Source of the DNA: Chrysopilus asiliformis
Lineage: Eukaryota; Arthropoda; Insecta; Diptera; Rhagionidae
Reading direction: 5' to 3'
Assembly (NCBI GenBank): GCA_964034945.1
Contig: OZ035961.1
Location: 46,488,184-46,552,183, forward strand
Length of the DNA stretch: 64,000 bases
Part shown: positions 1 through 64,000 of the stretch, piece by piece
Position numbering within the stretch: the stretch's first letter is position 1
How the letters are laid out: each line of letters opens with the position of its first letter
Notes under the pieces: generated by a model
What the model was told of the DNA's origin: nothing
The model's input: the letters and a program-made list of their open reading frames with translations, nothing else
Databases searched by the model: none
Program-made: the position numbers and the translations under genes

Positions 1-581
1 ATCCAGAACGGGAAACGTAGCAGAGAAAGAACATCAGCAGCAGACAGATATCGGACTCAGCAGCAGAAAGTTCTAAATCAACGATAAAACAATAAGCAGA
101 AAAGCGATCAGAAGCAGCAACAGCAGATCAGAAAGTCAATTTTAATTTCAACTACGAAGAATCATCAGTTGAATCACTTTACAAGTCAAATAAAGTGCAA
201 AGCAACGAAAAATTGAAACGAAGAAGAAGCAGCAAAGCAGCCAACATAGAAAGCAGTTTGGAGGAATAGAATCAGCGAACAAGGGAAAACCGCACCAAGT
301 AAACAACAAATACGTGTAAGAAGTGTGCTAAGAACGAGATCACCATTGGAATCATCTTTCAAGTGTCGTTTGAAGGCGGAAAAGCAGCTTTAAAATTAGC
401 GTGGAAAATTTTCATCAACTGAAAGTCGAGATTGTCAAAGGTCAGGAGCGCTGCAACACATTGCATGTAAAAATTTTGGGAGGTAAGAAGTAGTATAGAG
501 AATTTAAAAAATTGTGTCTGGTAATTTAAGATTTCAAATTTTTAAATATCCGTGAAAATATATTGTTGTGAATTATTGTAA
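1..581 (+). other. 5' leader of an LTR retrotransposon (family N), cut by the window edge
   Basis: This stretch has no open frame and is rich in A and AGC/CAG triplets, as expected of a retroelement leader between the primer binding site and gag. A good splice donor, AG|GTAAGA, lies at 482/483. The string ATCATCTTTCAAGTG at 351-365 recurs in the leader near 63132, and the gag that follows is homologous to the one starting at 63444, so both ends of the window hold the same element family. The LTR and primer site would lie left of position 1. Confidence 0.6.
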
Positions 582-1310
582 ATGAATAAAAGATAAGAAG
601 AGAACATTCTGACCAAAGAAGAGTTGGATCGATATAAAACAATAGAAGTAGAATTAGAACACGCAAAAAATCAAAAAGAACAGTTTAGACAAGTGATAAA
701 TAGACTTAAAGAAGATTTCGGTTACATTCAGGAAATATTATTAGGGGAATTAAAATTACTACTTAATAGTGAACAGGTGATAATTTTAGAACAATTAGTA
801 AAGGAAAATCCAGACAGGATATCGGCAAGTAGGATCACGGTAACATACATTGAAAAAAACATTGAAAACATACATTGAAAACATACATTGAAATCCAGAC
901 ATATATTGAAAAAGTGAAAGAAAAGAATATTGAGTTCGAGGACGAGATAAGAAAATTAAAAACTAAAGAAGCTACGTTAGAGGATAGGATTCAGGATCAT
1001 AAGGAATATTTAAAAGAGGCTGAAAGCACAAACGAGGAATTACTAGCCCAAATAAATAGGATAAATCATATAGTGAGAACCTGCTCAAATAACGAGCAAA
1101 GTAGTTTAGCGAAAAGTGTTAGCTAAGTTAGAAAAATCGCAAGTAGTGCAGGGTCTAGTAGTATTTTTGAGGAATTAACAAAAGCAAACAAACTTTCGGT
1201 ACTTACTTTGCCTATGCAGTATACCGATACTAGGATTATCCATCCTGCAAAATATGTAATGGGATTTTATATGACAGAGTCCATTCCCTCTCAATTTTCG
1301 CGTCAGCATT
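582..1310 (+). pseudogene. gag: Broken gag of family N LTR retrotransposon
   Basis: The frame starts with ATG at 582, meets a stop after four codons and then stays open to 878. It continues in another frame from 875 to 1126, and recognisable sequence extends to about 1310. The protein is Glu/Lys-rich and predicted coiled coil. It aligns by eye with the intact gag at 63444: TKEEL/TKEEV start, GYIQEILLGELK versus GYFQELLLSELK, ENPDRIS versus ENPHEVS, and SSIFE near the end. There is at least one early stop and one frameshift, so it is a relic. A Helitron fragment follows. Confidence 0.65.
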
Positions 1311-1438
1311 TTACTTTCATTTTATAGAATATTATTAATTTTATAGAAAAAAAATCAGATTGATGAATTCTAAATTTGATTATTGAGCGCGTGTTGCTTA
1401 CACCTGCATTTTACAAAATTCCAATATTTTTTAATGGG

Positions 1439-2749
1439 TCAGCATATTAAGTTTGCAAATATGGGAAGTCCTAACAGAGTCGTAGCAGCTTCCAGTGCTC
1501 CACATTCTCGATGGGTCAAACTTTGTAGAGCGGCAGACCACAACCGAGTAGCAAGAGATTTGGAGGAATCTATCCCTTTCAACGCGTTATCCAAATGGCT
1601 TTTCTCTCCAGCCTTAGTTTGGTATTTTGTGATATAATGCGCCGCAGTCATAGATTTTTCTCCAACATATTGTATATCCATGTTGCCCTCCCAGACTGAC
1701 AATATTATTGGATTAAAATCATTGATACTCTCCTCTGCCTTTGATCTGGGTAGATCGTACAATCTACAATTTTTCTTGTTTGATTTCCGACCAGCTGTAG
1801 CGGTTACAATGTCTCGTAGAATCAAATTTTCCGTAACTTTTCGAGGAAAATTAAATCTGCAAACTTTGTAAAAACCTTTCTTGGAGTGTTTCGCTCTCAA
1901 ACAATATCCGTTGTGCGTGTGTTTTTGGTGTGTAGATACACGGTCGCAAAGCGTGGGTGAAATGTTTTTGTCCGGAATTCTGCAAGTGCAATATTTCAAT
2001 ATGAATTGCGATACCTCCTCGTTGGTTGCGATACCTAATACAGGCGCATTTTCGACCCACAGCAAGATATGCCAGTGCGGGGCACCTCGAGTTTGGTACT
2101 CTTCACGCCAACCCCAATGAATAACTTTACCCAACGGAGCATCTTCAGAACATATGAAAGTAAGCATGGCTTGAAATTTATGTCTGAAAAATCGTACAGC
2201 TGAAACTGGATCACTGCAAGGCAACTCCCCAGATAATATTTTGTCGAAATCAGGTGCATTTACCTTACGACTGTAATCGTGCAAGTCCCCCCATAACCAA
2301 TCCGCAGGACTGATGGTCAGAAACCAGGTTGCTGGGCCATAATGTGCAAGCATGCACTGCAGATCATTTCGTGGTTTTTTCAAAAACTCTTTGGTGTTAC
2401 GAATACTTGCAAATATTGTGTTTATACATGCCTGAATTTCTCGTTCTTTCGATAATTGCAAAACATTTTTAACCGTATACTTCCTATGTGGATCAGATAC
2501 GTTGAGCGCGTGATAAATACCAAACTTTATTTGCCGAATAGTTGTATCATTTAACAAATAAAAAAGGTATTGTACGTTGCGCCGAAATTGTGAATGTTTT
2601 GACATAATTCTGACTTTAATATATTCATGATCGATAAGGCGCACGGGCCGAACTGCATGTTGTCCGTTTCTCCCGCAAGAATCACCCCGATTATGATTGT
2701 CGTGTCGAAAGCTAAACGTTCCGAAGTTCCGTTGTCGTGTCGATAGCAT
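1439..2749 (-). pseudogene. Helentron/Helitron-type Rep protein fragment
   Basis: A 436-residue minus-strand frame carries the rolling-circle Rep nuclease region of Helitron-like elements. Visible marks are the GPATWFLTISPADW segment and the metal-binding HUH-type motif in RGAPHWHILLW, followed by a Cys/His-bearing stretch, YITKYQTKAGEK and RECGALEAATTLLGLP. The SPADW wording is closer to the Helentron/Helitron2 branch than to canonical Helitrons. The tyrosine region and helicase are missing, so the element is truncated at its 3' end near 1439. Long plus-strand frames here are shadows. Confidence 0.8.
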
Positions 2750-3088
2750 TTTGGTATTATGTAGGAGACTCGAGACGACTAAAAAGCATTGCCATGTTAT
2801 CCTAGTTGAAAAGTGTGTTTAAAGTGATCCTTTTTATGTCACTCATATAAAATAGTTGTCAATTTGTGTTTTCAAAAATTTAATTTCAAACCGATTTTTT
2901 TTTAATTGTGGAAAAATGAATTCGTTTGACTTGTTTTTTGCGAATGATGATGGAGAAGAACAAATTGATATGCTGCAACGAAGAAAAGAGCTTCATGATA
3001 ACTCTAACCCTCTGGAACTGGACAATAAAACGTATGTTATTATTTAGCTACATCTAATATCAGAGAATACGAAGACTTATTGGAACTA

Positions 3089-4308: not shown

Positions 4309-4684
4309 TTGAAACGAAAAATGTCGTATTCAAACGCGATTGTCGTTTCTCGTGTCGTGAAATCAGTCCTAGCAGACCCCATCATCTATTGGAGGCAAAG
4401 GACCACTAGAAGAATAGCAGAAAGGGAAATCAAAGAAGCAGCCAGGAGACAGAAAGGAACCAAGATGGATCAGGCCATAGACCATATGTTTACATCAGCG
4501 GAAGACTTCCTGAAAACCAACAGAAACATCATCATGGTGGAAGCAGACAAGGCCAACCAGACTTGCATAATCACAAACAAACTTATGCATACCAAAATGG
4601 AACAATACATTAAACAAAAAATGGAAGAAGGCATCCTTAGCAAAGCTACCAAAGAAACGGCAGAAAAGGTGATAAGGATGCGCA
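4309..4684 (+). pseudogene. Penelope-like element, N-terminal part of the polyprotein
   Basis: The frame contains ADKANQTCIITNKLMHTKMEQ, the counterpart of the conserved ADKG..TVV segment just ahead of the reverse transcriptase in Penelope-like elements. It stops at 4695. The palm region resumes in a different frame at about 4685 (codons DICEMYTNIP, holding the motif A Asp). The fingers region normally found between is missing, so a deletion of roughly 100-150 codons with a frame change separates the two parts. Confidence 0.6.
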
Positions 4685-5596
4685 GACATATGTGAAATGT
4701 ATACCAATATTCCACTACGACAAGCCAGGGACATCATTAAAAAGAAGTTCGCGGAACACATCATAGACAAAACGCAGATGACATGGAATGATGTCAACAA
4801 TATCATGATATACATGACCCAAGCGGCAGCCTTCATTAAGGTAGACACAGAAAGAGGGGAAGAGATATACAAACAACAAAAAGGACTAAGAATGGGCCAC
4901 AAAATCTCGGGCATGATAGCCAAAATATACGTTCAGCAAAAAACGGAGGAATGGGTACAACAGGAAGGAGCCGTACTATGGGCCAAACTATATGTAGACG
5001 ATATTATATATGTCACAACAGAAGGCGCAGAAACCAACGCACTAAAGGACCTAGAAGACAGGCTAGGAATCCCTATTAAAAAGGGAGAAAAGGATGGCAA
5101 AGGGAAAATCACTTTCCTCAACATGAAGATAGGAAAAGAAAAAAACGGAACAATAGGGACGGAATATTGGAAACCCGAATATAAATCCAATAGAACCATA
5201 AATTGGAGATCAGGACATCCCAAGACCACCAAAATAAATATCATGGTGGAAGAACTAAGAAGGATTCACGACCTTACTACAGGGGAGGGAAGAAACAACA
5301 TAGGCAGGCACGTTGAGAGAACCAGCAACAAGTACATCAACAACGGTTATCCGGTGGGATTAGTTAGGAGGCATGCTATGCTTACAAGCAAATTCTACAA
5401 CAAAAAAGATAGGGGAGCAGGAGATGACCTCAACAAAGGAAGGCACAAAAGAAGATGGGACAAAATCCCAGTAGTGATATACAACTACAACCACAAACTA
5501 ACCAAAAAAATCAGAAAAATAGCAAAAAATAGACTGGGGATAAAAAATATAGGGTACAAAAACAGCAGGAAAGGTAAAGGGGAAAAGAAGAAGTAG
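4685..5596 (+). pseudogene. Penelope-like reverse transcriptase, palm and thumb
   Basis: Key marks in order: MYTNIP (motif A, catalytic Asp just upstream), GLRMGHKISGMIAKIYV (motif B), AKLYVDDIIYV (motif C, catalytic DD), FLNMKIG (motif D region) and GHPKTTKINIMVEELRRIH, matching the post-RT HP..K segment of Penelope elements. The lysine-rich tail ends at 5596 with no visible GIY-YIG endonuclease, so the copy is endonuclease-less or truncated. Base use is extremely poor in T, like the 2.7 kb that follow. Confidence 0.75.
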
Positions 5597-9784: not shown

Positions 9785-10448
9785 AGGATGAAATTTGGAC
9801 ACTGATGGTTACAGGGCAGATTTAATAAAGCGATTGACTGATTATTTCGGTAAGAATGAAATTGAGTCAAATAACGAACAGGACGGTTGTGACAATCAAA
9901 ACTCAGATATGTGCGTGGCCATTACGTTGCTAACCGAGCTAATTTATCGAAAATTGTGATGAGTATGCAACAGTCAACTTCCTCTTCCATGCCGGAAATG
10001 TCGCGCCAATTCGCCACCAACAAGCACCGAAACACCTGTGATTACGTCCGTACGACAGGTGCCTGTTAGCTTTGCAGCTGAGGGACCTGTATCGCTGAGC
10101 AATCAACCTAGAGACATAATGGAAATTTTACTAGACTTCAACTTCGTCGAAGAAACATCTTTTTCTTCATAACAATTTATGCGACGTGTCGAGAACTTAT
10201 TAGGTATTTATAAATTTTATGAGCAACTATTATTATTTGCAGTCCAAGCCAAAATGAAAGGACCGGCAAAACTGTGGTTCGACGCTTCACAAGATGTCTT
10301 CGGTACGTGGGAAATGTTCAAAACCAGTTTTCTCCAAGATTTTCCGCCTCGTTCAAACGAAGCTGAGATTCACCTGAAACTTATGAAAAGTCATCGAGAC
10401 TCTGCAGAAGATCCAGAGAAGTATTATTTCTATCGAATGCGCGAGTAA
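9785..10448 (+). pseudogene. gag: Gypsy-type gag relic (element D)
   Basis: The best-preserved part is 10179-10448, which reads VQAKMKGPAKLWFD...GTWEMFKTSFLQDFP, the retrotransposon gag (capsid) signature seen also in elements M, F and E of this window. Upstream, 10090-10178 continues the same protein through one stop, and earlier sequence is Ser/Pro-rich and frameshifted. The gag stops exactly where the LTR of element A begins, so insertion of A cut it off. Confidence 0.65.
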
Positions 10449-11118: not shown

Positions 11119-11146
11119 GTAAGTCGAATTCCATTTCATATTTTCC

Positions 11147-12000
11147 ATGCCGAAAATTCTCAAATTTTTTAACCAGCACAAAGTAGCACCTTACAATTCA
11201 AATAATTCTGATAGTAATAACGCCGCGGTATACGGAAACACTTTCGGTAATAGTTCGAATTTAGAATATTTAAATTTAGAGTGTTTGTATAGTGATAATA
11301 ATAGAATAAATAAGTTTAAACTTAAGAAAAGTGAAAGTTTATCAAATCTTTCTAATCCCGACGTTGAAAACATAAGTTTATCGAATCTTTCTAATCCCGA
11401 CGTTGAAAACATATATTTAGATCAAGTAAACATGACTAACGACACAGTCCCAATACTAATTAGTGCAGCCACTATTTCTAACGTACTACAAAATTTAAAA
11501 ATTCCTGACGCAGTTAAAGACCTGCAAAAATTCGATGGTAATCCTAGATTACTTTATGATTTTATTAGTAATGTGGAAGAAATTTTAAGTTTAGTAGGTG
11601 ATATAGGTCAATCAAGCAATGCTAGAATTTTGCTTAGGGCTATAAGGAATAAAATTGAAGGTCCTGCCAATGAGGTACTTAATATGTATGGAACCGCACT
11701 TGTATGGGAATAAATCAAACAAAATCTAATAGTGCATTATTCCGATAAACGCAACATATAAACTAGATAAGGAATTAACTTTATCAAATTTCATCGAATT
11801 CAACCAATTAGGGCGAACGAGATTCTTGATATTTAAATTTCACAATTATTTGGATGGTTTATTAGGTTTAGATACATTAAAACTGTTGAAAGCAAAAGTT
11901 GACCTTCATAATAAAACACTTATGACGAAAAATGTGACGTTGCCGCTTCTCTTTAAACCAAACCGAAAAGTGAATCGTTCCTTCAAATTCGAAGATCGTA
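11147..12000 (+). pseudogene. gag: Gag of gypsy element A (17.6/297-like)
   Basis: The open frame 11147-11713 (188 residues) has an Asn/Ser-rich N-terminus with a 15-residue direct duplication (LSNLSNPDVENI twice). A capsid-like part follows: LQKFDGNPRLLYDFISNVEEIL and RAIRNKIEGPANEVL. After the stop, recognisable capsid sequence continues with stops and shifts to about 12000, where the truncated mariner begins. It is probably from the same element as the reverse transcriptase at 13279-14147. Confidence 0.65.
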
Positions 12001-12020
12001 GTTAGAGTCCCGGTAGATAT

Positions 12021-13067
12021 ATGGTTAATTTGACGCAAAATTTTTCAAGTTTGGAAACAAAAAGAAGTCGCACGGGGCCAAATCTGGAGAATACGGTGGA
12101 AAGGGCAGCAGTTCGTAGCCCAATTCGACCATTTTGGCCGTGGCGACGGCGGAGGTGTGAGCCGGTGCGTTGTCATGGTGGAAGAGCACTTTTTTCTTCG
12201 CCAAATGGTGCCGTTTTTTCTGCAATTCGGCGTCGAATCGGCCCAATAATTCGGTATAGTAGAGCCCTGTGATCGTTTTGCCCTTCTCCAGGTAGTCGAT
12301 GTAGATCACATCTTGTGAATCCCAGAAAACGGTGGTCATCACCTTTCTGGCAGATAGGACAGTCTTCGCCTTCTTCGGAGCACGTTCGCCGGGTAAAGTC
12401 CACTGTTTCGACTGTTCCTTAGTCTCTGGTGTGTACCAGTGGATCCATGTTTCGTCGACGGTCACGAAACGACGCAGAAACTCCTTCGGATTGCGCTTAA
12501 ACAGCGTCAAACACTGCTGTGAAGTGGTTTCACGGTTGCGCTTGTTGTCCGGAGTGAGCAAACGCGGCACCCATCGCGCCGACAGCTTTCTCATGCCCAA
12601 AATTTCATGCAGGATATGACCCACGCGGTCTTTTGAGATGCCTACTGTCTCAGCTATCTCGCGCACCTTCAATCGGCGGTCTGCCAATACGAGATCGTGG
12701 ATTTTTGTTATGTTATCCTCCGTGGTAGCCGTTTTCGTAGCACCTGGGCGTGGCTCATCAAAAACCGACGTACGACCACGTTGAAACTCGTTACACCAAT
12801 TTTTGGCGGTCGCGCTCTTTGATTTCGCTGCGCGATTTCCCTTCCAGAAACAAGAATCGAATCACCGACCGATATTGCTCTTTTTCCATTTTTCTGAAAT
12901 CCGCAGACACGCCCGCTTCCATACGCGGTCAAAACAAAACTACGAGTTCGATTCGGCTGAAATTTTGACTGTAGCCGTCTATGAGAATGTACTACACGAT
13001 AGTAAATTTCTCCTGCGACAGTGGCGCCATCGGGCGGTGAGGATAAGTACTTATCGGACTGCCCTCG
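12021..13067 (-). mobile_element. Truncated mariner (mauritiana-type, DD34D)
   Basis: The right terminus ends ...GGACTGCCCTCG at 13067 with TA at 13068-13069, a typical mariner end (CGAGGGCAGTCC inward). No matching inverted repeat exists at the left; the element stops inside the transposase near 12021, so it is truncated on that side. It sits inside the gag-pol region of gypsy A. Confidence 0.8.
12025..12889 (-). pseudogene. Mariner transposase, frameshifted and C-terminally truncated
   Basis: The start codon at 12889 opens MEKEQYRSVIRFLF, the first helix-turn-helix. That part has a deletion and stops, then from 12687 a 220-residue frame reads cleanly. Catalytic residues are visible in FVTVDETWIHW, FHHDNAPAHTS and YSPDLAPCDFFLFP, the DD34D pattern. 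The usual 30-40 C-terminal residues after FLFPNLK are lost. It cannot be active. Confidence 0.85.
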
Positions 13068-13278
13068 TATATATCTGAAGGAATTTGCAAGGCTAAAGCA
13101 TAGCATAGTCTAATCGAAATTGTCAACCAATCCGATTCAGACCAACAATTTTTCCTTGAACAACCACTAAAGGTTCAAAAATTTGATTCAAAGAATTACA
13201 TCGAATTCAACAATTTTAATCTCCACCATACAAACGACAATTTAGGCCATTGAAAAACCATAAAAAAATATATTCGAA

Positions 13279-13625
13279 CTTCACATCTTAACGATGAAGA
13301 AAGGAAATTTGTTCTGCAACTATGCGCACAATATGAAAACATATTTTGCCGAAAAGAACAAGAACTGACTTTTAAGAACAAAATTAAACATTCAATTAGG
13401 ACTACAGACGATGTTCCAATCTACACCAAATCCTATCGTTATCCATATGTCCACAAGGAAGAGATAAAAAATCAAATTTCCGAAATGTTGAAACAGGGAA
13501 TAATTAGACCTAGTTACTCTCCATGGAGTTCTCCGGTATGGATTGTCCCGAAGAAACGAGATGCCAGTGGGAAACAGAAATGGCGCCTGGTTATAGACTT
13601 CCGCAAACTAAATGAAGAACAATAA
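13279..13625 (+). pseudogene. pol: Gypsy A pol: N-terminal reverse transcriptase (fingers)
   Basis: Coding sequence with no long start-to-stop frame reads HLNDEERKFVLQLCAQYENIF, then KSYRYPYVHKEEIKNQISEML, SPWSSPVWIVPKKRDASG and KWRLVIDFRKLNEE. These are the fingers motifs of 17.6/297-type reverse transcriptase. A frame break at about 13625 separates it from the palm at 13682. The 210 bases before it (13068-13278) hold only degraded sequence with no recognisable domain. Confidence 0.75.
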
Positions 13626-13681
13626 ACGATCGATATCCAGTTCCTAATATTACTGAAATATTAGACAAATTGGGTAAATGA

Positions 13682-14147
13682 TTGTATTTCACTACATTAG
13701 ACCTTACAAGCGGATTTCACCAAATTGAGATGAATCCCACCGATATCGAAACGACAGCATTTACAGTTGATGGGGGACATTTCGGATTCTTGCGTATGCC
13801 ATTCGGTTTAAAAAACGCACCATCGACATTTCAAAGAGCCATAGAAAATGTCCTTAAAGACTACATTGGAAAGATTTGCCTTGTTTACTTAGACGATATA
13901 ATCGTTGCGTCCACTTCTCTACAAGAACATATCGAAAACATGACGAAGATATTTGACCGATTACGCGAAGCTAACTTAAAAGTCCAACTAGATAAATCAG
14001 AGTTTTTACACAAAGAAATTTCCTATTTAGGTCACATAGTGACAAACTAAGGAGTAAAGCCTAACCCAGAAAAAATTGAAGCTATAAAAGCGTTCCCAAT
14101 ACCCCGAACACAAAAAGAAATTAAATCTTTTCTTGGATTATTAGGGT
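13682..14147 (+). pseudogene. pol: Gypsy A pol: reverse transcriptase palm
   Basis: The 122-residue frame reads FTTLDLTSGFHQIEM (motif A), RMPFGLKNAPSTFQ (motif B), CLVYLDDIIV (motif C, catalytic YLDD) and SYLGHIV. After a stop at 14050 the same protein continues to 14147 (KSFLGLLG), where a terminal-inverted-repeat element interrupts it. It resumes at 17491 with YRKFIKDFAKQTKPLT. Confidence 0.85.
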
Positions 14148-45182: not shown

Positions 45183-45185
45183 AAA

Positions 45186-46148: not shown

Positions 46149-46153
46149 CAGAC

Positions 46154-49116: not shown

Positions 49117-49139
49117 CAAATGTACTAAACGTACCCTTA

Positions 49140-49149
49140 TTTTTACAGG
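49140..49149 (+). promoter_or_regulatory. Candidate splice acceptor of env
   Basis: TTTTTACAG|G just after the pol stop and directly before the env ATG. The pyrimidine-rich run and AG fit an acceptor that pairs with the donor at 39580. Confidence 0.65.
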
Positions 49150-49605
49150 ATGGTAATAATAATGGCGCTTTTCCTAGCCGTAGGCGTAGGGGGCAGTGAA
49201 GTAAAGGTGCAAAGATTTCAAACAAATCCCGGAATTTATTTCGAGGAAATCAGTAATGTAGGACTATACAGCAATGAGTGGACCCTCGTCACATACGTGC
49301 AGTTGAGTATGTTCAAAATTGAATTTAAGAAAATAATAGAGTACGAAAATGAACTACAAAAATTATGTAAAGATCTAATGACTACAAGCAGTGAAAAGGA
49401 ATGGTGTAATACCACTGTTCACGAGTATTCGCTAGTAGTTAGCAATATACGCGAAAAGAATAAATTGATAGTACCACAAACGTTACGACGGAAAAGGGGT
49501 GCGTTAAATATAATCGGTACCCTTGGGAAAAGTTTGTTCGGGGTGTTGAACGAAGACGACGCGAAGTACTACGACGACGAAATTAATAAAGTTCACAACA
49601 TTTGA
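49150..49605 (+). pseudogene. env: Env of the errantivirus, N-terminal part (frameshifted)
   Basis: The protein begins with a hydrophobic, signal-like stretch. An ectodomain with Cys pairs (LCKDLM, EWCNTT) and a furin-type cleavage site, RRKR, followed by a fusion-peptide-like stretch (GALNIIGTLGKSLFGVL, then NEDDAKYY) come next. This is the F-protein type fusion glycoprotein shared by errantiviruses and baculoviruses. The frame ends at 49603-49605, and the protein continues in the next frame from about 49602. One base is therefore missing or two are extra near 49596-49604, and the copy cannot make full Env without recoding. Confidence 0.85.
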
Positions 49606-50957
49606 TGAATTTATTGAAAAATCAAACCCTTTTAATAGAGACTACCCATAACTTATATAACAAGACAAGAGTTCAGGTAGAGGCCCAGTTTAACGCAATC
49701 GACGTAAGACTCCAACACATAAGGAGCGACATTAACGTTGTGGGGGGTAGTTTAAGACAAGCCCTATTGCACAAATCCGAGCTGTTATTAGCAAATCTGC
49801 AGTTAGTGGCGACCAGGTACGAAAACTACCAGGATGTAATCATCAATTTGATTACGAGCATTCGACACGGGAAATTACACCCCTCGCTCATTACCCCTTC
49901 TCAGTTACACGAGGCGTTAATGAAAATACAGAAGAATCTACCAACTTCTGTGCGGCTTCCAATACCGGATGGAACACTTTTACAAGTATATAGGTTAGGG
50001 CAATTAAGCACCACGATACAAAATGACCGAATATTATTTGAGCTAAAACTCCCACTACCTTCTCGCGAGGAATATAAACTCTTTCGAGTAGTACCCCTGC
50101 CTACACGGCACGAACATAAATTTATTTTCATCCGTCCATCAGTTAAATATTTGGTAGTCGATCTGAGCAAGGAACATTATTACACCTTGACAGAAGGCGA
50201 TTTCGCAAACTGTATGTTTCAAGAAGAGAACATGTTTCTGTGTAGAATCGTACACCCTATATTCAATACAAATTCCGAAAATAACTTATGCGAAATCGAA
50301 TTACTCCGACATGCCAGAGAGGTACCTGCCACATGTAAGATCAAGGAGATACCACCAACAAACTTCTACGTGCAACTCGCACAACCGAACAAATGGCTAT
50401 ACTCATTAAAAGAAAAAAATATTCTAGATGCGGTGTGCGGAAATCAAGTCACCCCAGTAGAACTGGAGGAAGTAGGACTTTTTGAGCTACCAACAGGATG
50501 CTATCTGCGCAGTAACGAGCTTATTATTCAAGCGCACAACACAGTTAAATCAACCCTAAACGCATTCTATATTCCTAGCTTCAATCTGTCAAGAGACTTA
50601 TCGAGTAGAGTTGAGTCTTTTCCCACAAAGTCCGCAAAAACCATTCTTCTGAAATACACCAGCGATCAGGAATACGCAAATTTAGGAACAGAAATCCAAT
50701 CACAGAAACGAGCCGAACACGAGCCGTTACAAACAATTCGGCAGCACGACATTCACCATTACTCTGTAGGATATGGTTGCGTGGCTGTTATCCTCATTAT
50801 GGTAATAGTATATACGATTCACAAACGTGGTTGTAGCGTAAAGTCAAAACGTTTCCGATTAAAGCATAATAACGAAAATAAGAATGAAATAGAGTTTACG
50901 GAACAAATGACAACTAAAGAAGAGGGGGGTCCCATTCCATTGTGTAGATCAACGTAA
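49602..50957 (+). pseudogene. env: Env of the errantivirus, C-terminal part
   Basis: About 450 residues continue the F-type glycoprotein. A heptad-like helical part follows the fusion peptide, and a Cys-bearing ectodomain spans residues 190-310. A membrane segment near residue 395 (YGCVAVILIMVIVYTIHKRG) is followed by a short basic cytoplasmic tail. The apparent start is a TTG, so the real reading enters from the upstream frame. Apart from the frame break at about 49600, no other stop is seen. Confidence 0.85.
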
Positions 50958-50995
50958 AAAAAATAAATGAATAAAGAAATGTATATTTTTATTGG

Positions 50996-51044
<49 letters not shown>

Positions 51045-51442
51045 ATATATATATAATAATAATAATAATTACATATAAAAAAAAAAAGATATATATATAC
51101 ATAACAGTAAGAAAATATGGGAAGAAATATAGCAAGAAAATATATAGAAATAACTAAAAGACAGAAAATAAAAAATAAAAAAAATTTTGTCCATAAAATT
51201 GTAAAAAAAAAAAAAGAGAAAGAAAAAGAAAAAGGAAAAGAGGAAATTTTTTTTTTAAGCATTTAAGATAGGTAAATCCAATATATGCAACAAATAAGTA
51301 ATTGAGCTTACTGTATGGCTTATAGTATATCAATAAATAAATAATTAATAAATATAAAATTTTTTTTTTCTCAACTCACTGAACTGATTCGAAATCATCT
51401 AAGAAAGTCAAACTGCATTTCATTTGTTCAACTTTCTTTTTT
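50958..51442 (+). other. 3' untranslated stretch of the errantivirus
   Basis: No gene is seen. A poly(A) run of about 38 at 51000-51038, TA and AAT microsatellites at 51044-51100 and more A-runs fill it. The minus-strand frame at 50819-51262 is a product of these runs. Confidence 0.7.
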
Positions 51443-51453
51443 AAGGGGAAAGG
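51443..51453 (+). promoter_or_regulatory. Polypurine tract of the errantivirus
   Basis: AAGGGGAAAGG directly precedes the 3' LTR, the expected plus-strand primer. Confidence 0.8.
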
Positions 51454-52439
51454 TGTCATAACTGACCACCCATATGACTGTTGTAAATCACTTCATAGGG
51501 AATATCCTTTCAAATCTAATGAAATAGGAGATATTCCCTATGAGACAAAGAACAATTAGAAACATTCATAATTCACATGAATTATGAATGTTTCCAAGAA
51601 AGTACATTTACGCAACCCGGAGAAGCAACGAGCAATAACCCCGGGGTACGTAAATGACAAGCGCATCGAATTAAATTCAATATTGGTCAACATATGTGGG
51701 CCACCAAAGTGCAAAGACGCACATTTATTAAATACCAATTCGATGTAGCAAGTATTGACCAACATATGTCGGTCACATAATGTGCAAAGATGCACATAAA
51801 TTATCCAAACACAATGTGCGCTTGGAATTGCCCAACGTAAACAAACTGCGAGGTGGCTCACGTTACCTCGCAATGTGATTTACGCTGTGGCCTAAATAAA
51901 CAAGTCGCACATGTGCAATGCACTCAAGCCGATGGAAGGTAATGTTGGAAGCCAACTGCGACCAATCAACCTCCAAGTGAAAACTTAACGAAGTTTTCGA
52001 TTGGCTGAGAACAAAATAGACGAGGTGCTTCCAAAAGAAGGGAGTAGCCAATAAAAGGGCCTTCACGGCCAATAGCAAGGGCAGTTGATAATAAGAGTTG
52101 ATAATAAGAGTTGATAATGAGAGTCGAAGATACGAAATCAATCAGTCGGTCGATCAGTCAGTCAAAGGTCAGAAAATAACCTAAGTGTTTTGATTCCGAT
52201 AAAACTAACTAAAATAAAGTTATGTAAAAGAATATAATAAGAACGTTAAGTTGAAAGAATAAGTGTTTTCATTGCGATAAAGTTAATTAAAGTTTAATTA
52301 TGTAAAAGAACGTAATAATAATGTTCAGTTAAACGAATAAGTGTTTTCATTGAGATAAAGAAATAAAAGTAAGATATGTAAAAGAACGTTATAATAAAGT
52401 TATGTTAAGAGAATAAGTGTTTCATTTCGCGACATAACA
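51454..52439 (+). repeat. 3' LTR of the errantivirus, 986 bp
   Basis: Matches the 5' LTR except for about four substitutions and one fewer GTTGATAATAAGA unit (three instead of four), which accounts for the whole 13-bp length difference. Confidence 0.95.
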
Positions 52440-52443
52440 ATCT

Positions 52444-53029: not shown

Positions 53030-53865
53030 ATGTCAAAGCTGAACCTGAAACATTTTCAGGATTACAGAAGCCAGACTTTGACGAGGAAATCTACAACCCC
53101 ACAAGGTAATTTAGGAGTGTCGGGTCTGACGTCGAAGAAGTGTTAGAACCATATTTCGTTAGAACCATAGGCAGAGATTTCTTGAATATTTTGAATATGA
53201 AGCTTGTAATTGATGATTATTTAAATGAATTAAATTTTGATGAAGAAATACTTAATATTAACATAGATAATAAGTTTGATTTTTCTGATTTATGTGTTGG
53301 TAATGAAGTTTATTATAATACTAAAGTCGAAATTTTAGAAATGTACAAAAACTATAAAAGAAATGCGAGATTGAGAGGTAACCCAACGATTAAAACGGAA
53401 ATGAAAATTTGTCTGCAGAAAGATGAAATGTTTAATTTTAAGCCAAGACGAATTTCTTTTTATGAACGCGAGGTGTTGTCAAAAATCTTAAGTGACCTTC
53501 TCGAAAACGGATTCATAAGGGAGATCGAATCTCCGTACGTGTCGTCGATTGTTCTTATCCCCAAGAAGAAATCGAGCGAGTACAGATTGTGCATAGATTA
53601 TCGTAGTTTAAATAAGTTGACGTTACGCAACAATTACTAAATACCCGATATTGTAGATTTAATCGACCGATTTGAAGGAAAAAAGGTTTTTTTCAATTTT
53701 GGACTTGAAAAACGACTTTCATCATGTCTACATGGAGCGTGAGTCTATTAGATTTACGAGCTTTACAACTCCATTAGGGCAATACAAGTGGGTTAGAATG
53801 CCGTTTGGACTTAAGACTGTCCCTCCTGAATTTCAGAGGTTTGTTGAAAAAGCATTCCGTCGGTT
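53030..53865 (+). pseudogene. pol: Gypsy reverse transcriptase fragment (element H)
   Basis: The frame 53140-53640 leads from a linker region into RRISFYEREVLSKILSDLLENGFIREIESPYVSSIVLIPKKKSSEYRLCIDYRSLN (fingers). 53672-53860 in another frame gives FSILDLKNDFHHVYME (motif A) and WVRMPFGLKTVPPEFQRF (motif B). It ends before the YxDD motif. It is a different lineage from elements A, F and the errantivirus. Confidence 0.8.
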
Positions 53866-54088
53866 AATTGAATCATCTGGCAGCACTGAAACCAGTTGGA
53901 AAAATTTACGCTTCACGAGTTTCTTTTTTATTTCATTTTCACTTCGTCAATAAAACCAGTAAATATTTCTGACATTCAAATTCCATTAAGTGGAATTATT
54001 ATCACGAAAAAATCGGGGAATTTCTTTTGCTATCGACAAAAACTTGGAACTTCGTACACTTCCATGTACATAACCTCAATTTTACATC
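53866..54088 (+). other. Junction sequence and 5' untranslated region of the CR1-like element
   Basis: No gene is recognised. After the gypsy homology ends near 53865 the sequence changes character, and the last 100 bases lead into the ORF1 ATG at 54089. Confidence 0.35.
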
Positions 54089-54878
54089 ATGCCGGAAAGT
54101 TCCAGAAAAGTAAACTCACAGGGAGGCTCATCTCATAAAGCGACTCATTGTTCCGATTGTACGCGTGAACTTGCGAAGGAGGCTTCGATTGAATGTACAA
54201 AATGCCGTACCTGGATTCATAACATTTGCTCAGGTTTGAATTATGTTGAATTTGAAGAGGCATCTAAGTCTCCGGATGTGGTTTGGCTTTGTAAAAAATG
54301 TGCCTCGTGTGCCACAAAAAAAAACCAAAAAAGATGATATGGCTTCTATCAATGAGAAACTAGCTCTCATTGTTTCAGAATTTGCCAATCTTAGGAAAGA
54401 ATTAGCCGACTTTAAAAAATAATTAACCGACTTTAATAAATCAATCTCCTTTCTTTCTGGGAAATATGATGATTTACTCAAATGTCAAGTAGAGCAAGGC
54501 AAACAGATATCCAGGGTATCTGCGTAAGTGAACTTAAAAAACGAAATTACAACGAAACTATCCAAAGATGTAGTTTACATCCAAAGAGTTGTAGCAAAAA
54601 ATGACGTTTGTGTGCAAAACCTAAGTGGAGAGACCAATATTAGAGATACTCGTCAAGCATTCAAATTACTACATGAGACGTGTGCATCCATCAACCTTGC
54701 AATTTCGGAGGGTGACATTGATGAGATTAGGATCAAATCTGGCCAGACAAACTCTACCAAATCTACAATATTTGTGAAATTTGTTAGTAACCTCAAAAAG
54801 AGAGAGCTGATGTCGCAGAAAAAAATTTTGATGAATACCATGGAGCTCAAAATCTTTACGTTTATGGTTTTTGATTAG
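54089..54878 (+). pseudogene. CR1-like non-LTR ORF1 with PHD-type zinc finger
   Basis: The frame 54089-54337 encodes a Cys/His zinc finger: CSDC..C..CRTWIHNICSG..YVEFEEASKSPDVVWLCKKC, the PHD-type pattern seen in ORF1 of insect CR1-related elements. After a shift a coiled-coil part (EKLALIVSEFANLRKELADF) follows. Then 54528-54878 reads VVYIQRVVAKNDVCVQNLSGET and FVKFVSNLKKRELM, an RRM-like region. It has one stop and two frame changes. Confidence 0.65.
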
Positions 54879-55089
54879 AGTTTTGAAACTAATTATTTAT
54901 TTTATCTTCATAATATTTTATGTTATGCAGATTAATTGCTCACATTTTAATTTAATTGATATAACTAGGATCGCGTGAAAAAAAAATCCTGTTTTTCTAC
55001 TCATAGATTTCTTAAATTATCAAATTGATTTGTACAAATAGTTACTTGAGCTCGGTTCAGGACTTTATTGACTGTAGATTGACTGATTT
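54879..55089 (+). other. Spacer between ORF1 and ORF2 of the CR1-like element
   Basis: AT-rich sequence with no recognised domain; the endonuclease begins near 55090. Confidence 0.3.
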
Positions 55090-55501
55090 AGAAAATCTTA
55101 GAATACTTTCTTGCGCAGCCTAGCAGCTATTAATAAATTCCTAAAATTTAAAGAACTCATTGCTCAAATCCCGCATTTACACGTAATAGTACTGCAAGAA
55201 ACATGGTTTTCTAAAGATAACACCCAATTATATCAGATACCTGGCTATAGAGCTATACATTCATGTCGTGATGATGACTATGGGGTCTTAGTCTATATGT
55301 TGTGGAAGAATTGTCATTTACTGCTTTTTATAATGATTCTACTAACTTCTGTAATTTTATTGGTATAAGTCTCAACAACACTAAATATAAAAGTAAGCCT
55401 TTGAACATTATAGGATTTTACCGCTCACAAAAATGCAAAGTTTATGACTTCCTCGATAATTTATCGAACCTATTAAATTTAAATAATAATTCACCTTGTT
55501 T

Positions 55502-55991: not shown

Positions 55992-56934
55992 TGTCATAAC
56001 TGACCACCCACACGACTGGGTATAAACCATTTCATAGGGAATATTCTTCAAAACTAATGTAACATGAGATATTCCCTATGAAATAAGGAACAAATAGAAA
56101 CATTCATAATCCGCATGAATTATGAATGTTTCCCACAAATACATTTACGCAAGTAATGATCAATAACCCCTGGGGTTACGTAAATGACAAGCGCATCGAA
56201 TTAAATTCAATATTGGCCAACATATGTGGGCCACCAAAGTGCGAAGACGCACATTTATTAAATACCAATTCGACGTAGCAAGTATTGACCAACATATGTC
56301 GGTCACATAAAGTGCAAAGATGCACATAAACTATCCAAACACAATGTGCGCTTGGAATTGCCCAACGTAAACAAACTACGAGGTAGCTCACGTTACCTCG
56401 CAATGTGATTTACGCTGTGGCCTAAATAAACAAGCCGCACATGTGCAATGCACTCAAGCTGATGGAAGGTAACGTTGGAAGTCCAACTGCGACCAATCAA
56501 CCTCCGAGTGAGAACTTAACGAAGTTTTCGATTGGCTGAGAACAAAGTAGACGAGGTGCTTCCAAAAGAAGGGAGTAGCCAATAAAAGGGCCTTCACGGC
56601 TAATACCAGGCAGTCAGATGATTTTCAAGAAAGCAGTAGTTAGGCCAGATAGTCAAGGCCAGTGGAGAGAAAGTAGAGTCAGTTCTAAAATTAGTGAGGT
56701 GCAGTGGGGTGAAATAGAGAATAAGTTTTTCTGTATAAGATAATATGTTAAAATCAATAAACTTAGATTAACAAAGTGAACAATAAATAGTTAATGCGAA
56801 TCATTTTCTTGTTTCCTTTAAATTGAACAATAAATGAATTATGTTAATAGTGATTAACAAGGTGAACAATAAATAGATAATGCGAATCAGTTTTTTGTTG
56901 AAGAAATTATAAATTACGTTAATAGAGATTAACA
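55992..56934 (+). repeat. Solo LTR related to the errantivirus, 943 bp
   Basis: Starts TGTCATAACTGACCACC like the errantivirus LTRs and ends AACA, flanked by AGAC on both sides (55988-55991, 56935-56938). It is clearly diverged from the 37800/51454 copies: different repeats at its 3' end, with GAACAATAAAT and GATTAACAA units. It keeps the palindrome (56097-56132). Removing it rejoins the endonuclease between PTR and SCIDHV. Confidence 0.93.
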
Positions 56935-57869: not shown

Positions 57870-59195
57870 ATGTCATCCAGTTTTAATACCGGACGGAAGC
57901 GGTCCCATGTACATCGTCCAATGCTGGGAGGAGTGAGTCCATCGCATCGCCATCTTCTTCGATACCCCAGGTTCCCGTAGCGCCTTCAAATTTTCTTGAC
58001 CTGGAAATGGAGGAAATTCGGGGACTCATTCCGGAGTTCAGGCTGTGGTGAGGAGGTATTTTCATGTTTAAATAAGAATTATGTACTTTGCACCCTCGGT
58101 TAACTTGGGTTCATCGTACGAATAATGGAAAACATGAATATACGAACTTCCGCATGTCTTCAAAGTTCAATAAATTAATAATAATTGTATTTATGTAAGT
58201 TAAGCAATTATAAAAGTAGTGACACAAATCTTAAGCTGATATAGCTTGGTCACCAAATAATTGTTATTTCACAATAACTAAAAGATTTAATGTCAAACCA
58301 GAACATTGGACTTTGTAATGGTAATCGATCGGTGATCGATGCAGTCAGTTAACAACAGAGTTCTGAGTTGATCACGGAAGTAGCCGGACGTTCTTTTTAA
58401 GTAAATTATTAATTTTAATAAGTTAACCGAAAATTGTAATTCCAATCAAAAAGTGTTCGTTAAATAAATGAAGTAAAATTTATACAGTGTTTTCTTATGT
58501 GTAAAGTGTATATGTCCACTCGGCGTGTTTAGGAAAAACACAACACGACAAGGCCGGGCAAGGATCAGGGACTAAACACGAAACAATGGGTGGAACACGT
58601 CGACCGAATGCGGCTTACATACCTGTGGGCCGAGCGAACAACACTTATGTACGCGACAATACGCCTACGAGACGCTGCACAGTTTTGGTTACAGACACGC
58701 GACGGGGTTTTTGCGGACTGGGCAGCGTATAAAAACGATCTAATTCATAGTTTTCCTGAAGTGGTCGACGAAGCGAAGATTCATACGAAGCTTGCGTCAC
58801 ACCGACGCAAATGGAACGAGCCTATAGAAAGTTATTTCTACTAAATGGCCTCCCTGGCGAAGTCAGTAAAATTAACGAACGAGTGTACCATAAAATATCT
58901 TATCTCGGGTCTGGGCAATAAAGATTTACAAAATATCGTGATGGCACTTACCTACACCGACCCAGTGGAGTTGTTGAGCAGAATTAAAATATACGAGTCC
59001 ATGAGCCCGGAACCAGCGCATCACGATCACAATGAGACGAATGCTCGAAATTCGCGTATGCTTCGAGCAGAAGCAAATGCTTCGGCACAAAACAAGCATT
59101 TGCCACATCCCTCGCATCTGCGGAGAATTGAACCGACCCCGTATTCAAAACAAAACGCGTTTATACCGCGCTACCAACAGGCGGGAACAAACTAG
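57870..59195 (+). pseudogene. gag: Gag of gypsy element E, split by a solo LTR
   Basis: 57870-58043 encodes the N-terminus (MSSSFNTGRKRSHVH, frame change, EMEEIRGLIPEF). After the solo LTR, 58555-58844 gives WVEHVDRMRLTYLWAERTT, LRDAAQFWLQTRDG, DWAAYKNDLIHSFP and ESYFY. After a stop, 58845-59195 continues ASLAKSVKLTNECTIKYLISGLGNKDLQ to a Gln/His-rich tail. It aligns with F gag (28336) in every block. The zinc knuckle is not seen. Confidence 0.85.
58044..58550 (+). repeat. Solo LTR in E gag, 507 bp
   Basis: Starts TGTGGTGAGG, ends ACACGACA, flanked by AGGC on both sides (58040-58043, 58551-58554). TATAAAAG is at 58209-58216 and AATAAA near 58464, so it is oriented plus. Removing it restores gag between LIPEF and KDQGLNTKQW. 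No other copy of this LTR was found in the window. Confidence 0.9.
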
Positions 59196-59314
59196 TGTCC
59201 TGGAAAGTGTTTCCACCTCTTCGCGCCGTGCGGATTACAACAAGGACGACGTGCTTAACAATCTACGACACTTCCGAAAAACCACAGCAGGAATTATGTT
59301 GTTCCATCAAATAT

Positions 59315-59711
59315 AAAGTGGCAGATTGTGAGAACGTCTCATGCTGGTTTGGGACATCCAGGATTGGAGCGTACGGTAGATCACGTTCAACAGACGTATT
59401 GGTCGGCAAAAATGAGTTTTTATAAAAAACAAACGACTGTATGCAGTACGCATATAATATGCGAAGTACCGACTTAACGCTTTATCAGATACACACATAC
59501 CAAACTGATCCTGTCCCTTTTCAAACAATTCACTTCGACCATCTGCAGCCTTACCCCAGAAGTAGCCGGCAGAATGTTCATCTTTTGGGCATCATCGATG
59601 CATTCAGGAAGTTCATAATTTTAAAACCAGTTCAAAACACTAGCACGAATTCAGTAATTAAGGCGTTAATTGAACTATCACAATTTTTTGGCATTCCTTT
59701 ACAAATCGTAA
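59315..59711 (+). pseudogene. pol: Integrase fragment of gypsy element E
   Basis: The zinc-binding region is recognisable (VRTSHAGLGHPGLERTVDHVQQTYW). The frame 59441-59711 then gives PVPFQTIHFDHLQPYPRS, LLGIIDAFRKFIILKPVQNTSTNSV and ELSQFFGIPLQIV, the core up to just before the second Asp. Helitron sequence takes over at about 59712. Protease, reverse transcriptase and RNase H are deleted. Confidence 0.8.
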
Positions 59712-61125: not shown

Positions 61126-61570
61126 ATTTATAGCAACTAGCAACTGATGGAAAAGACAGCTATCCCCGCGCAGCTCAGGTAATAGATAAAGACATTTATA
61201 TTGATGACATCCTTGCAGGTGCTGACGAGCTTCAAGCGGTCATTGAGTTGCAGACTGAAATAGTGAACATCCTGAAAATGGGCGGTTTTGAATTGAAGAA
61301 GTGGGCTACTAACTATGAGGAATTGCTGATTCATATTCCAATGGAAGATCGAGAATGTATATCTTCGCTTGATATCGACGAAGCAGAACAAACAATTAAA
61401 ACCCTAAGCGTCTATTGGAACTCGACCGCTGATACTTTCACTTTTAAGACTCAGCTAAGGCCGTTGGAAGCTGTCACTAAAAGAACAATATTGTCCGATA
61501 TTGCTCGACTCTACGACCCGTTAGGCTGGCTATCGCTACTGGCTAGATGTGTCTCGAATGTCGCAATAAT
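61126..61570 (+). pseudogene. pol: BEL/Pao reverse transcriptase fragment (element J2)
   Basis: Reads ATDGKDSYPRAAQVIDKDIYIDDILAGADEL, holding the catalytic YIDD. The frame 61248 onward then gives ILKMGGFELKKWATNYEELL, TLSVYWNSTADTF and AVTKRTILSDIARLYDPLGWLS. These are the same motifs as element I at 22147, but from the catalytic side. The end of the frame (to 61727) is not recognised. Confidence 0.8.
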
Positions 61571-62606: not shown

Positions 62607-62694
62607 TGGCGCAGCCGGTAGGATTAAGTTCAAGTTCAGTCTGAATCCAGAAAGTTTAGAGTTGATCAAGCCACCACATAATTGGCGCAGCCGG
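62607..62694 (+). promoter_or_regulatory. Duplicated primer binding site of family N (tRNA-Ser type)
   Basis: CCACATAATTGGCGCAGCCGG occurs at 62598-62618 and again at 62674-62694. Thus the LTR end plus the TGGCGCAG primer site (62607 and 62683) is present twice, 76 bases apart. The first is followed by TAGGATTAAG, the second by ACAGCG. Confidence 0.75.
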
Positions 62695-63261
62695 ACAGCG
62701 ATTTGTCAATTTTTTTTTTTTGACATTTTAAAACCGAACCTTAAACTTCCTTAAAGTGGTGTAAAAGAGTAGTGGCAGAACATTAAACGAGAAAATGGTG
62801 TAGTGAAATAACATTTGAAAATACGAAGCAGATGAATTAAAACAACAAAGATAAATAGATAAAATAGACAACGAGAAACAGAATGGTCACCAAATAAAGA
62901 AGCAGAATAAAAATTCGTGTAAAATCTACTTGCAAGAGGCAAAGGAGTATCATTACCAATTCAACTGTTAAGAGGCGTAAAAAAAATCAATTTTAAATCG
63001 GCAGAATACTGTGAAATATCACTAGAACGATTCTCACCAAATCCGTCATCTCTAGATCTACTTTCAAGAGGCGAGAAAAAAAATCAACGAAGGATCAGCT
63101 ATTTGAAAAGGCGCAGTAGAATCAGCTTTAAATCATCTTTCAAGTGGCAATAAGACCAGCAGACAGTGGAACCGTAAGATTGGAGCAGCTAATCACAAAC
63201 CAACAGAGGAAATCACCTAGTAGCAAACAGTTAAAAATTCAGGAGCCGACAACAATCAACA
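62695..63261 (+). other. Leader of the second family N element
   Basis: No gene is seen. Purine-rich sequence with three CTTTCAAGAGGC/CTTGCAAGAGGC/CTTTCAAGTGGC-type repeats at about 62929, 63061 and 63138. Shares ATCATCTTTCAAGTG with the leader at the start of the window. Confidence 0.55.
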
Positions 63262-63284
63262 ATGGAGATTTTGATTATTGGTAT
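63262..63284 (+). other. Candidate env leader exon of family N
   Basis: An ATG plus six hydrophobic codons and two bases ends at the donor GTAAGA (63285). Same phase as the exons at 11090, 26081 and 39563. Confidence 0.55.
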
Positions 63285-63443
63285 GTAAGAAAGTTATGTA
63301 AAACTATCCATTAGTATAAATTATGCATAAGTACAAAGAATTAAGCCGTATTTTGTTTTGAAAGTTGATTAAGCCACGCGGTTGTTCGAAAGTTTTATAA
63401 AAAAACGGGATTAGAGTAAAAATCGAGTTTTAGTGTATAGTAA
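63285..63443 (+). other. Spacer between the splice donor and gag of family N
   Basis: AT-rich, 159 bases, without open frame. Confidence 0.4.
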
Positions 63444-64000
63444 ATGCCGGGAAGACGCAGAGAAAACATATTTACAAAAGAAGAAGTTGAAGAAATTAAA
63501 AAACTGCAAACAGATATTGAAGTGTTCAGAGAATTTTACAAGAACGAGGCTAAGAAAATTACGGAAGAATTAGGGTATTTTCAAGAACTATTACTTTCAG
63601 AACTTAAGTCAAAAGTTACATCTCACGAGTACGATGAATTGAAAAAACAAATTACAGAAAATCCACACGAAGTATCAGTAGGTAGGTTAACTGAAAGTCT
63701 TTTTGATGTGTACATCGATTCAATAAATAAAACACAAGTACTGCTACATGAAGAAATAAATAATTTAAAGGAAAATAACGGTTTTTTGAATAGGGAATTG
63801 AAAAATAGCAAGGGTCTAATAGAAGAGGCAGAAGAAATAAATTCAAAATTGAATTCTCAAATTATAGAAGTAGGTGTAGAATTGAAGCTTTTAAAATCAA
63901 ACTTGCCACCAAATTCACAGCTAGAACACATAGAGAGTATATTAGGGTCAAGTATTTTTGAAGGTGTGATGGCCAACAAAAAGACCATCACATTCCTTTC
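63444..64000 (+). CDS. gag: Gag of family N, intact start, runs off the window
   Basis: The frame is open for 185 codons to the window edge. It begins MPGRRRENIFTKEEVEEIKK, is Glu/Lys-rich and predicted coiled coil, and includes GYFQELLLSELK, ENPHEVSVGRL, HEEINNLKENNGFLNRELKN, IESILGSSIFEG. It is homologous to the broken gag at 582-1310, which confirms the family. The ATG at 63444 fits as start because no in-frame start lies upstream. The minus-strand frames here are shadows. Confidence 0.75.
   Translation, partial: MPGRRRENIFTKEEVEEIKKLQTDIEVFREFYKNEAKKITEELGYFQELLLSELKSKVTSHEYDELKKQITENPHEVSVGRLTESLFDVYIDSINKTQVLLHEEINNLKENNGFLNRELKNSKGLIEEAEEINSKLNSQIIEVGVELKLLKSNLPPNSQLEHIESILGSSIFEGVMANKKTITFL

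Follow-up and report, generated by a model that had tools for sequence, protein, structure and literature searches.

Introduction

Flamenco and the flamenco-like (flam-like) piRNA clusters of Drosophila are the closest described systems. According to PMC10643416, loci syntenic with flam outside the melanogaster subgroup span 227-1,085 kb, and the strand bias of Drosophila flam-like clusters is described there as gypsy-only; a similar criterion to the one employed here (LTR strand bias in 100-kb windows) led in that study to one-strand piRNA loci in both drosophilids with public data. The false positives of FlaHMM in D. ficusphila fell mainly in centromeric regions (PMC11400887). Ovarian somatic uni-strand clusters are further described in PMC13172572 for a hoverfly, the Queensland fruit fly, mosquitoes, a stingless bee and crickets, one Anopheles cluster being located in the 3' UTR of a gene, and PMC13226689 reports that ERVs inserted in antisense within the 3' UTRs of host genes initiate piRNA production.

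Here we analyse a window of 64,000 nucleotides (the whole stretch of DNA under study; C2:46488184-46552183) in the 429 Mb genome of Chrysopilus asiliformis, which is the left portion of a gene-poor, uni-strand cluster of LTR elements of at least 267 kb. Like flamenco and the flam-like loci as described in PMC10643416, this cluster extends over hundreds of kilobases, is rich in gypsy remnants and carries most of these in a single orientation, against the direction of the inferred transcription. It differs from flamenco in that the bias also involves BEL and copia elements, in its border gene (FANCL) and in being known from sequence alone, whereas the clusters described in PMC13172572 were discovered by small RNA-seq. 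It resembles the latter in its antisense gypsy elements and in its BEL elements (BEL/pao is described in an Anopheles cluster), and it resembles the stingless bee cluster of about 200 kb, in which LINE and copia elements are described.

Results

Extent, borders and content of the locus

In window coordinates, which we use throughout unless a position on C1, C2 or C3 is given, the cluster runs from about -20 kb (a minimum for the left bound) to 246.7 kb, near which the final confirmed LTR-element piece on the right ends. The host gene at the right border is FANCL, found on the minus strand at 251.4-252.5 kb; the 11 named proteins among its 16 matches were all drosophilid, with identities of 30-34%. 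Rfam and tRNA scans of the whole window gave no matches, and matches to MADF at 241.1 kb and DUF4817 at 166.5 kb presumably represent transposon proteins.

Table 1. Retroelement features of the window, with the evidence for each.
Feature	Position	Strand	Evidence
Penelope-like reverse transcriptase fragment	4676..5593	+	RVT_1 E 1.1e-5, under family cut-off; Penelope class by eye
Gypsy gag fragment (D)	10113..10445	+	Arc capsid/Retrotrans_gag; gag family match
Gypsy element A, broken by minus mariner and another insert	11123..17604	+	RVT_1 2.4e-31; tblastn pieces 11754, 13053, 17380
Gypsy gag fragment (M)	18320..19248	+	gag family match
BEL element I	19701..25336	+	Peptidase_A17, integrase domains; tblastn
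Gypsy element F	27574..32319	+	gag, protease, RNaseH, rve; 106-nt direct repeat at both ends, 93%
LTR-like insert splitting F integrase	30478..30860	.	AATAAA on both strands; direct copies at 190.3 and 236.2 kb
LTR-like insert in F	31380..31930	+	TATA and AATAAA, plus only
Copia element, split by hAT-type MITE at 34046-35722	32512..35840	+	gag_pre-integrs; tblastn with flank copia
Errantivirus, gag + pol + env	37800..52440	+	Baculo_F 3e-33; LTR pair
Young BEL nested in errantivirus	42335..46148	-	LTRs 99.6% identical; DUF1759 1.8e-34
Gypsy RT fragment (H)	53110..53950	+	RVT_1 6.4e-11; tblastn
CR1-like LINE fragment	54074..55365	+	PHD finger 2.3e-6; Exo_endo_phos only 0.06; LINE class by eye
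Solo LTR, errantivirus family	55992..56614	+	91% to errantivirus LTR, direct
Gypsy element E (gag, integrase piece)	58533..59698	+	gag family; integrase tblastn 5.8e-4, one of 120 queries
BEL pol fragment	61134..61535	+	Peptidase_A17 2.6e-4; tblastn 1.4e-22

The env frame of the errantivirus is in two parts, and the BEL element nested within it, whose interior holds a gag-type frame only, is the sole minus LTR insertion of the window (Table 1). Integrase pieces of gypsy F were seen by eye to flank the 30.48-kb insert on both sides, and F was counted as a single insertion carrying nested LTR-like inserts. The ends of the hAT-type MITE and the copia tail beyond it were likewise recognised by eye. 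The CR1-like fragment possibly includes an endonuclease.

Strand orientation in the window and its flanks

The first-pass annotation had assigned 21 of 22 retroelement segments of the window to the plus strand, and its arithmetic for the two-sided chance of such a count is correct (1.1e-5). Near-uniform plus orientation is borne out, the exact tally only in part. Twelve of the 21 plus segments are confirmed (Penelope 1, D, A, M, BEL I, F, copia, the errantivirus, H, the 55992 solo LTR, E and the BEL fragment), as are the young nested BEL as the only minus segment and the mixed strands of DNA transposons. Support is weak for two more, namely the 31400 LTR (signals on the plus strand only) and the CR1-like piece (PHD matched, endonuclease at E 0.06). 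The other seven were not confirmed as plus-strand retroelements: N1 and N2 are related to each other and gave no retroelement match, LINE ORF1 showed a coiled coil only, B is a 69-nt direct repeat, Penelope 2 was classed by eye with no useful Pfam match, and the LTRs at 30480 and 58044 have signals on both strands.

Counted conservatively, 11 of the 12 LTR insertions in the window are plus (P 0.006). Since the window was chosen for its appearance, a fresh sample was needed, and this was provided by the flanks: over the 20 kb beyond the left end of the window and the 200 kb beyond its right end, both out of sample, 18 of 19 LTR insertions are plus (P 7.6e-5). The bias, whose loss in flanking sequence the first-pass annotation would have taken as a refutation, persists for at least 20 kb leftward and about 183 kb rightward. 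Window and flanks together contain 29 plus insertions out of 31 over 267 kb (two-sided P 4.6e-7), the LTRs at 30480 and 31400 being excluded from both the 12 and the 31. A strict count, from which pieces with gag alone, the env piece, the solo LTR and a weak gypsy piece on the minus strand (72.7 kb) are left out, gives 23/24; as it thereby loses that one minus insertion, we prefer 29/31, in which it is retained.

The tblastn footprints over 284 kb (with gypsy matches overlying BEL or copia bodies removed) amounted to 22,525 nt plus vs 132 minus for gypsy, 17,640 vs 1,794 for BEL, 6,732 vs 0 for copia and 4,515 vs 3,795 for LINEs, and the strand bias of LINEs was not significant (5/7). One gag family lies on the plus strand in all 9 of its places. 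Errantivirus and env-carrying pieces are all plus as well: the element at 37800-52440, a second copy of its family at 180.6-185.3 kb (gag and pol seen) and an env piece at 244.1-246.7 kb. In an annotation-free self-comparison, a recognised LTR pair was present in none of 26 inverted far pairs, which comprised 13 from one short MITE-like family, 10 from a palindrome (255-260 kb), one Tc-like pair and two short unclassified pairs.

Discussion

A probable flamenco-like piRNA cluster

LTR/gypsy elements at this locus mostly face the same way across 267 kb, well above the scale of about 100 kb looked for in a flamenco-like cluster, and the env-carrying gypsy elements (ERVs), being on the plus strand, would be antisense to leftward transcription; among LTR elements the bias is not confined to gypsy, as BEL and copia share it. 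We consider that the locus is probably a flamenco-like uni-strand piRNA cluster with leftward transcription from the FANCL side, and the flamenco-like reading first proposed for the window is partly supported. Pol II would enter the cluster at its right end and read the minus strand leftward, starting between 246.7 kb and FANCL, either at a promoter of the cluster's own or through run-on from FANCL. The resulting long RNA, complementary to the gypsy/errantivirus, BEL and copia sequences, would be processed into antisense piRNAs that silence their relatives elsewhere in the genome, and insertions of the useful orientation would be retained. Close family copies do occur elsewhere (among 86 scored places, the RT stretch of the errantivirus recurs at 13 others with 96-99% identity), and PIWI-domain exons gave 10 matches in the genome, this domain being common to AGO genes.

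The position of FANCL, on the minus strand at what would be the 5' end, provides a gene-bearing border that fits the need for a leftward-reading promoter, with 246.7-251.4 kb as the candidate promoter interval. A minus-strand TATA box scan of 245-251 kb returned three A/T-rich matches, which we do not count as evidence. Minus-strand AATAAA motifs were not depleted (330 observed vs 247 expected), so they do not point to selection that would keep a leftward transcript unbroken, and minus-strand poly(A)/splice-signal counts were set aside as uninformative on leftward transcription. Were FANCL to run on leftward, a host transcript would enter antisense ERV sequence, as in the cases described in PMC13226689; those are single insertions inside a UTR, whereas the present locus is a 267-kb array. 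A literature search on FANCL together with piRNA clusters turned up a single zebrafish paper. We offer tentatively, and as a doubtful extension, a fuller scenario in which a somatic cluster of at least 267 kb was seeded at the 3' end of FANCL, a DNA-repair gene, is fed by run-on or a new promoter there and captures every LTR superfamily (gypsy/ERV, BEL and copia) while leaving out LINEs; a second such cluster, oppositely oriented and on a different chromosome, would lie at C1:82.0-82.3 Mb.

Alternative explanations

The alternative that survives best, though we judge it unlikely, is that an ordinary gene on the minus strand is read leftward through the cluster, as a large intron or a long non-coding transcript and with no piRNA role, and that sense LTR insertions were purged as their poly(A)/splice signals damage the gene, leaving the antisense ones. 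PMC1794541 documents an antisense bias among ERVs in introns, and bias in gypsy, BEL and copia with much less in LINEs is what would be expected if LTR poly(A) signals do harm. Against this, no clear host exon was matched between -20 and 251 kb among the frames scanned (69 of the 171 window frames that reach 75 aa and 30 of the 114 flank frames that reach 140 aa; short exons would escape), and FANCL itself terminates at the right border (stop codon 251,448) and does not span the cluster. Antisense bias in introns is also not known to be as strong as 29/31.

Less likely still is a chance run, or an excess of one orientation produced by local duplication and nested insertion, in a pericentromere rich in LTR elements. 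On C1-C3 the LTR places crowd at roughly 44-73 Mb, a zone that may be pericentromeric, which weighs against the piRNA-cluster reading as well. Strand agreement does occur elsewhere: C1:82.0-82.3 Mb is a second one-strand region (7/7 minus), C2:44.77-44.97 Mb is all minus among the places seen and includes two RT-match pairs 53.8 kb apart, the pattern expected of tandem duplication, and a 50-kb control on C3, too small to judge but speaking against a unique layout, is minus throughout for its three gypsy clusters and its single env piece. Yet the best-scoring 186 LTR places genome-wide are mixed (85 plus, 101 minus). Among these, neighbours within 300 kb outside the locus agree in strand in 73 cases and differ in 47, and once C1:82.0-82.3 Mb is also set aside the figures are 52 and 47, which suggests that LTR elements in this genome do not usually show such a one-strand layout. 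Chance or duplication would moreover have to account for a P of 4.6e-7 against about 1,600 same-sized windows in the genome, for the out-of-sample result in the flanks and for elements of differing families and ages, each counted once.

Directional insertion, for example by the direction of replication or transcription at integration and with no later selection, is very improbable: young full-length elements are already 6/7 plus by measured LTR pairs (plus-strand identities of 100% for copia, 99.6% and 99.4% for BEL, 98.3% for the errantivirus LTRs at 37800-38799 and 51454-52440, and 97.5% for two gypsy elements, against a single minus BEL at 99.6%), but we know of no directional insertion bias for the three LTR superfamilies, and the lack of agreement in most neighbour pairs elsewhere would be left unexplained.

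Implications

Comparable clusters are already on record from several flies and mosquitoes as well as from a bee and crickets, and the present locus would be a further example. The strand count of one window gave here a prediction that was upheld on flanking sequence. If the piRNA-cluster reading is true, an anti-retrovirus piRNA locus will have been predicted from sequence in a dipteran outside Drosophila, with a FANCL border that would make it traceable across related species. It would then help to show whether such traps arise repeatedly next to genes, and whether selection acts by element class (LTR vs LINE) rather than on gypsy alone.

A one-strand cluster of LTR elements extends beyond the window

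We located the window at C2:46488184-46552183 (+) in a genome of 429,065,045 bases (42 contigs) and re-annotated it using stop-to-stop frames and Pfam (69 of 171 frames of at least 75 aa were searched in the main Pfam round), self-comparison and tblastn, for which 120 gypsy pol relatives served as queries (see table). All 9 gypsy pol clusters found by tblastn read on the plus strand, and the sole confirmed minus retroelement is the young nested BEL, which looks non-autonomous because a gag-type frame alone lies between its LTRs. The first-pass annotation had placed 21 of 22 retroelement segments on the plus strand and DNA transposons on both; the latter was borne out, as was the bias (11 plus and 1 minus LTR insertions). 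Most of its plus pieces were recovered, while seven segments stayed unconfirmed (N1, N2, LINE ORF1, B, Penelope 2 and the LTRs at 30480 and 58044).

Features of the window and its right flank (window coordinates, carried on rightward beyond 64 kb)
Feature	Position	Strand	Remarks
N1	597-1123	plus	coiled-coil-like; related to N2 (33% identical), one per window edge; no family match above cut-off
Helitron	1.4-2.8 kb	minus	Pfam
Tc-like transposase	3183	minus	by eye
A-rich stretch	4001-8000		plus strand very A-rich, AT skew 0.44-0.56, at/after Penelope-like RT
RT, Penelope type	4676	plus	class by eye
Gypsy gag D	10.1 kb	plus	
Gypsy A	11.1-17.6 kb	plus	broken by mariner and one further insert
Mariner	12.0 kb (12028-12861)	minus	in gypsy A; Pfam
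Gypsy gag M	18.3 kb	plus	
BEL I	19.7-25.3 kb	plus	
Inverted repeat	23794-24132		near-perfect; 159-nt arms, 97% complementary, 21-nt spacer
Gypsy F	27.6-32.3 kb	plus	apparently a single insertion, since integrase pieces flank the 30.48-30.86 kb insert on both sides (by eye)
Copia	32.5-35.8 kb	plus	
Polinton-type polymerase	35.8-37.5 kb	plus	by eye; no Pfam match
Errantivirus	37.8-52.4 kb	plus	LTRs 98.3% identical; Baculo_F env
39-nt tandem array	41542-41857		in errantivirus; 8.1 copies, 95% match; related stretch in second errantivirus copy, 183.6 kb
Young BEL	42335-46148	minus	nested in errantivirus; LTRs 99.6% identical
Gypsy RT H	53.1 kb	plus	
CR1-like piece	54.1 kb	plus	PHD finger match; LINE class by eye
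Solo errantivirus LTR	56.0 kb	plus	
Gypsy E	58.5 kb	plus	
Helitron	59.7-60.1 kb	plus	Pfam
BEL piece	61.1 kb	plus	
N2	63444-63998	plus	as N1
Gypsy piece	72.7 kb	minus	44 residues, E 2.8e-5; the minus LTR insertion of the right flank
Broken env	244.1-246.7 kb	plus	
FANCL exon	251448-252464	minus	FANCL_d3 2.5e-22
Palindrome	255290-260471		large, right of FANCL; repeated units of ~180 nt

The first-pass annotation had named loss of the bias in flanking sequence as evidence against its reading. We added 200 kb on the right and 20 kb on the left, and searched the joined 284 kb using gypsy, BEL, copia, LINE and Penelope proteins as queries. The gypsy queries came from the earlier pol relatives and the others were frames from the region itself (window and classed flank frames); gag, env and other frames of the window served as further queries. 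Some queries are the region's own elements and hence match themselves, which affects detection, not strand. Gypsy matches on BEL or copia bodies were handled as cross-hits, and pieces possibly of one element were merged by hand.

The bias was kept. LTR insertions numbered 1 plus in the left flank and 17 plus and 1 minus in the right, i.e., 18/19 plus for the flanks alone (two-sided P 7.6e-5) and 29/31 with the window (P 4.6e-7). The one-strand observation holds, and is stronger than first reported. One gag family was plus in all 9 places, and gypsy coding sequence occupied the plus strand only in 21 of 53 5-kb bins, the minus strand only in none and both in 1 (absent from 31). LINEs were plus in 5/7 cases (P 0.45), a tally that counts two window pieces only tentatively classed as LINEs. 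AT skew was positive in 45/50 5-kb bins from -20 to 230 kb, which is not independent evidence because skew tracks element orientation.

When the sequence was compared with itself, independently of annotation, 103 repeat pairs separated by more than 3 kb emerged (77 direct, 26 inverted). The inverted pairs comprised 13 from a short MITE-like family (which also accounts for 8 direct pairs), 10 from the 255-260 kb palindrome, 1 Tc-like and 2 short unclassified pairs; none was a recognised LTR pair.

Rightward, gypsy pol-type pieces are found as far as 231.1 kb, with the broken env and FANCL beyond. The FANCL exon has its stop codon at the left end and lacks ~40 N-terminal residues, presumably encoded on an exon farther right. 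The array continues through the 20 kb examined leftward, so its left extent is a minimum.

Strand agreement elsewhere in the genome

As a control we took the best-scoring gypsy RT places (150 of 2,169 and 86 of 3,128) and BEL places (27 of 2,445), which are not a random sample and include few of the locus's own elements. Thinned to one per 12 kb, these gave 186 places (85 plus, 101 minus). Neighbours up to 300 kb apart agreed in strand in 73 cases and differed in 47 with the locus excluded, and in 52 and 47 when C1:81.9-82.4 Mb was also left out; local strand agreement is therefore not the genome's rule.

Nor is the layout unique to this locus. At C1:82.00-82.29 Mb (82000971-82293930) all 7 deduplicated gypsy/BEL places are minus, as is a further LTR match at 82184879; a pure run of 7 arose in 1.85% of 2,000 shuffles. 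A small control of 50 kb on C3, picked by coordinates only, likewise counts against uniqueness: its gypsy clusters (three) and its one env piece were all minus, and one LINE was plus. Separately, every LTR/RT place seen in C2:44766200-44967817 is minus, and two RT pairs there lie 53.8 kb apart, the pattern expected of tandem duplication.

A flamenco-like locus as the favoured explanation

The locus type itself is already known. In Drosophila, LTR strand bias in 100-kb windows served to find flam-like clusters de novo, and these yielded one-strand piRNAs in both species with public data (PMC10643416); their bias is described there as gypsy-only, whereas here it spans gypsy, BEL and copia. FlaHMM is reported to take gypsy strand alone as input, with false positives in D. 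ficusphila mostly in centromeric regions (PMC11400887). Hoverfly, Queensland fruit fly and mosquitoes are reported to have somatic uni-strand clusters with antisense gypsy, an Anopheles cluster also containing BEL/pao and one of a bee containing LINE and copia (PMC13172572); transposon density appears lower in mosquito flamenco-like loci (PMC7919454).

The main rival is an antisense bias of the kind known for intronic ERVs (PMC1794541). The flamenco-like reading, proposed in the first-pass annotation, survived the sole test possible from sequence, namely the flank bias; it is the best-supported explanation and, as a prediction that extends to small-RNA steps, reasonably probable.

Because the elements lie plus, a leftward transcript would be antisense to them. 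FANCL points toward the array, in the direction of transcription needed for antisense RNA, and piRNA production can begin from antisense insertions in 3' UTRs (PMC13226689). A promoter or FANCL run-on within 246.7-251.4 kb would start transcription, and a long leftward precursor RNA across the array would be processed into antisense piRNAs targeting elements of the gypsy/errantivirus, BEL and copia groups. PIWI-domain exons gave 10 matches in the genome, a count in which AGO genes are not told apart. Candidate targets, which such piRNAs may recognise, are copies elsewhere: the errantivirus RT stretch recurs at 13 other places with 96-99% identity (among the 86 best-scoring of 3,128), and the BEL at 134.4-142.1 kb at three places with 99% (among the 27 best-scoring of 2,445).
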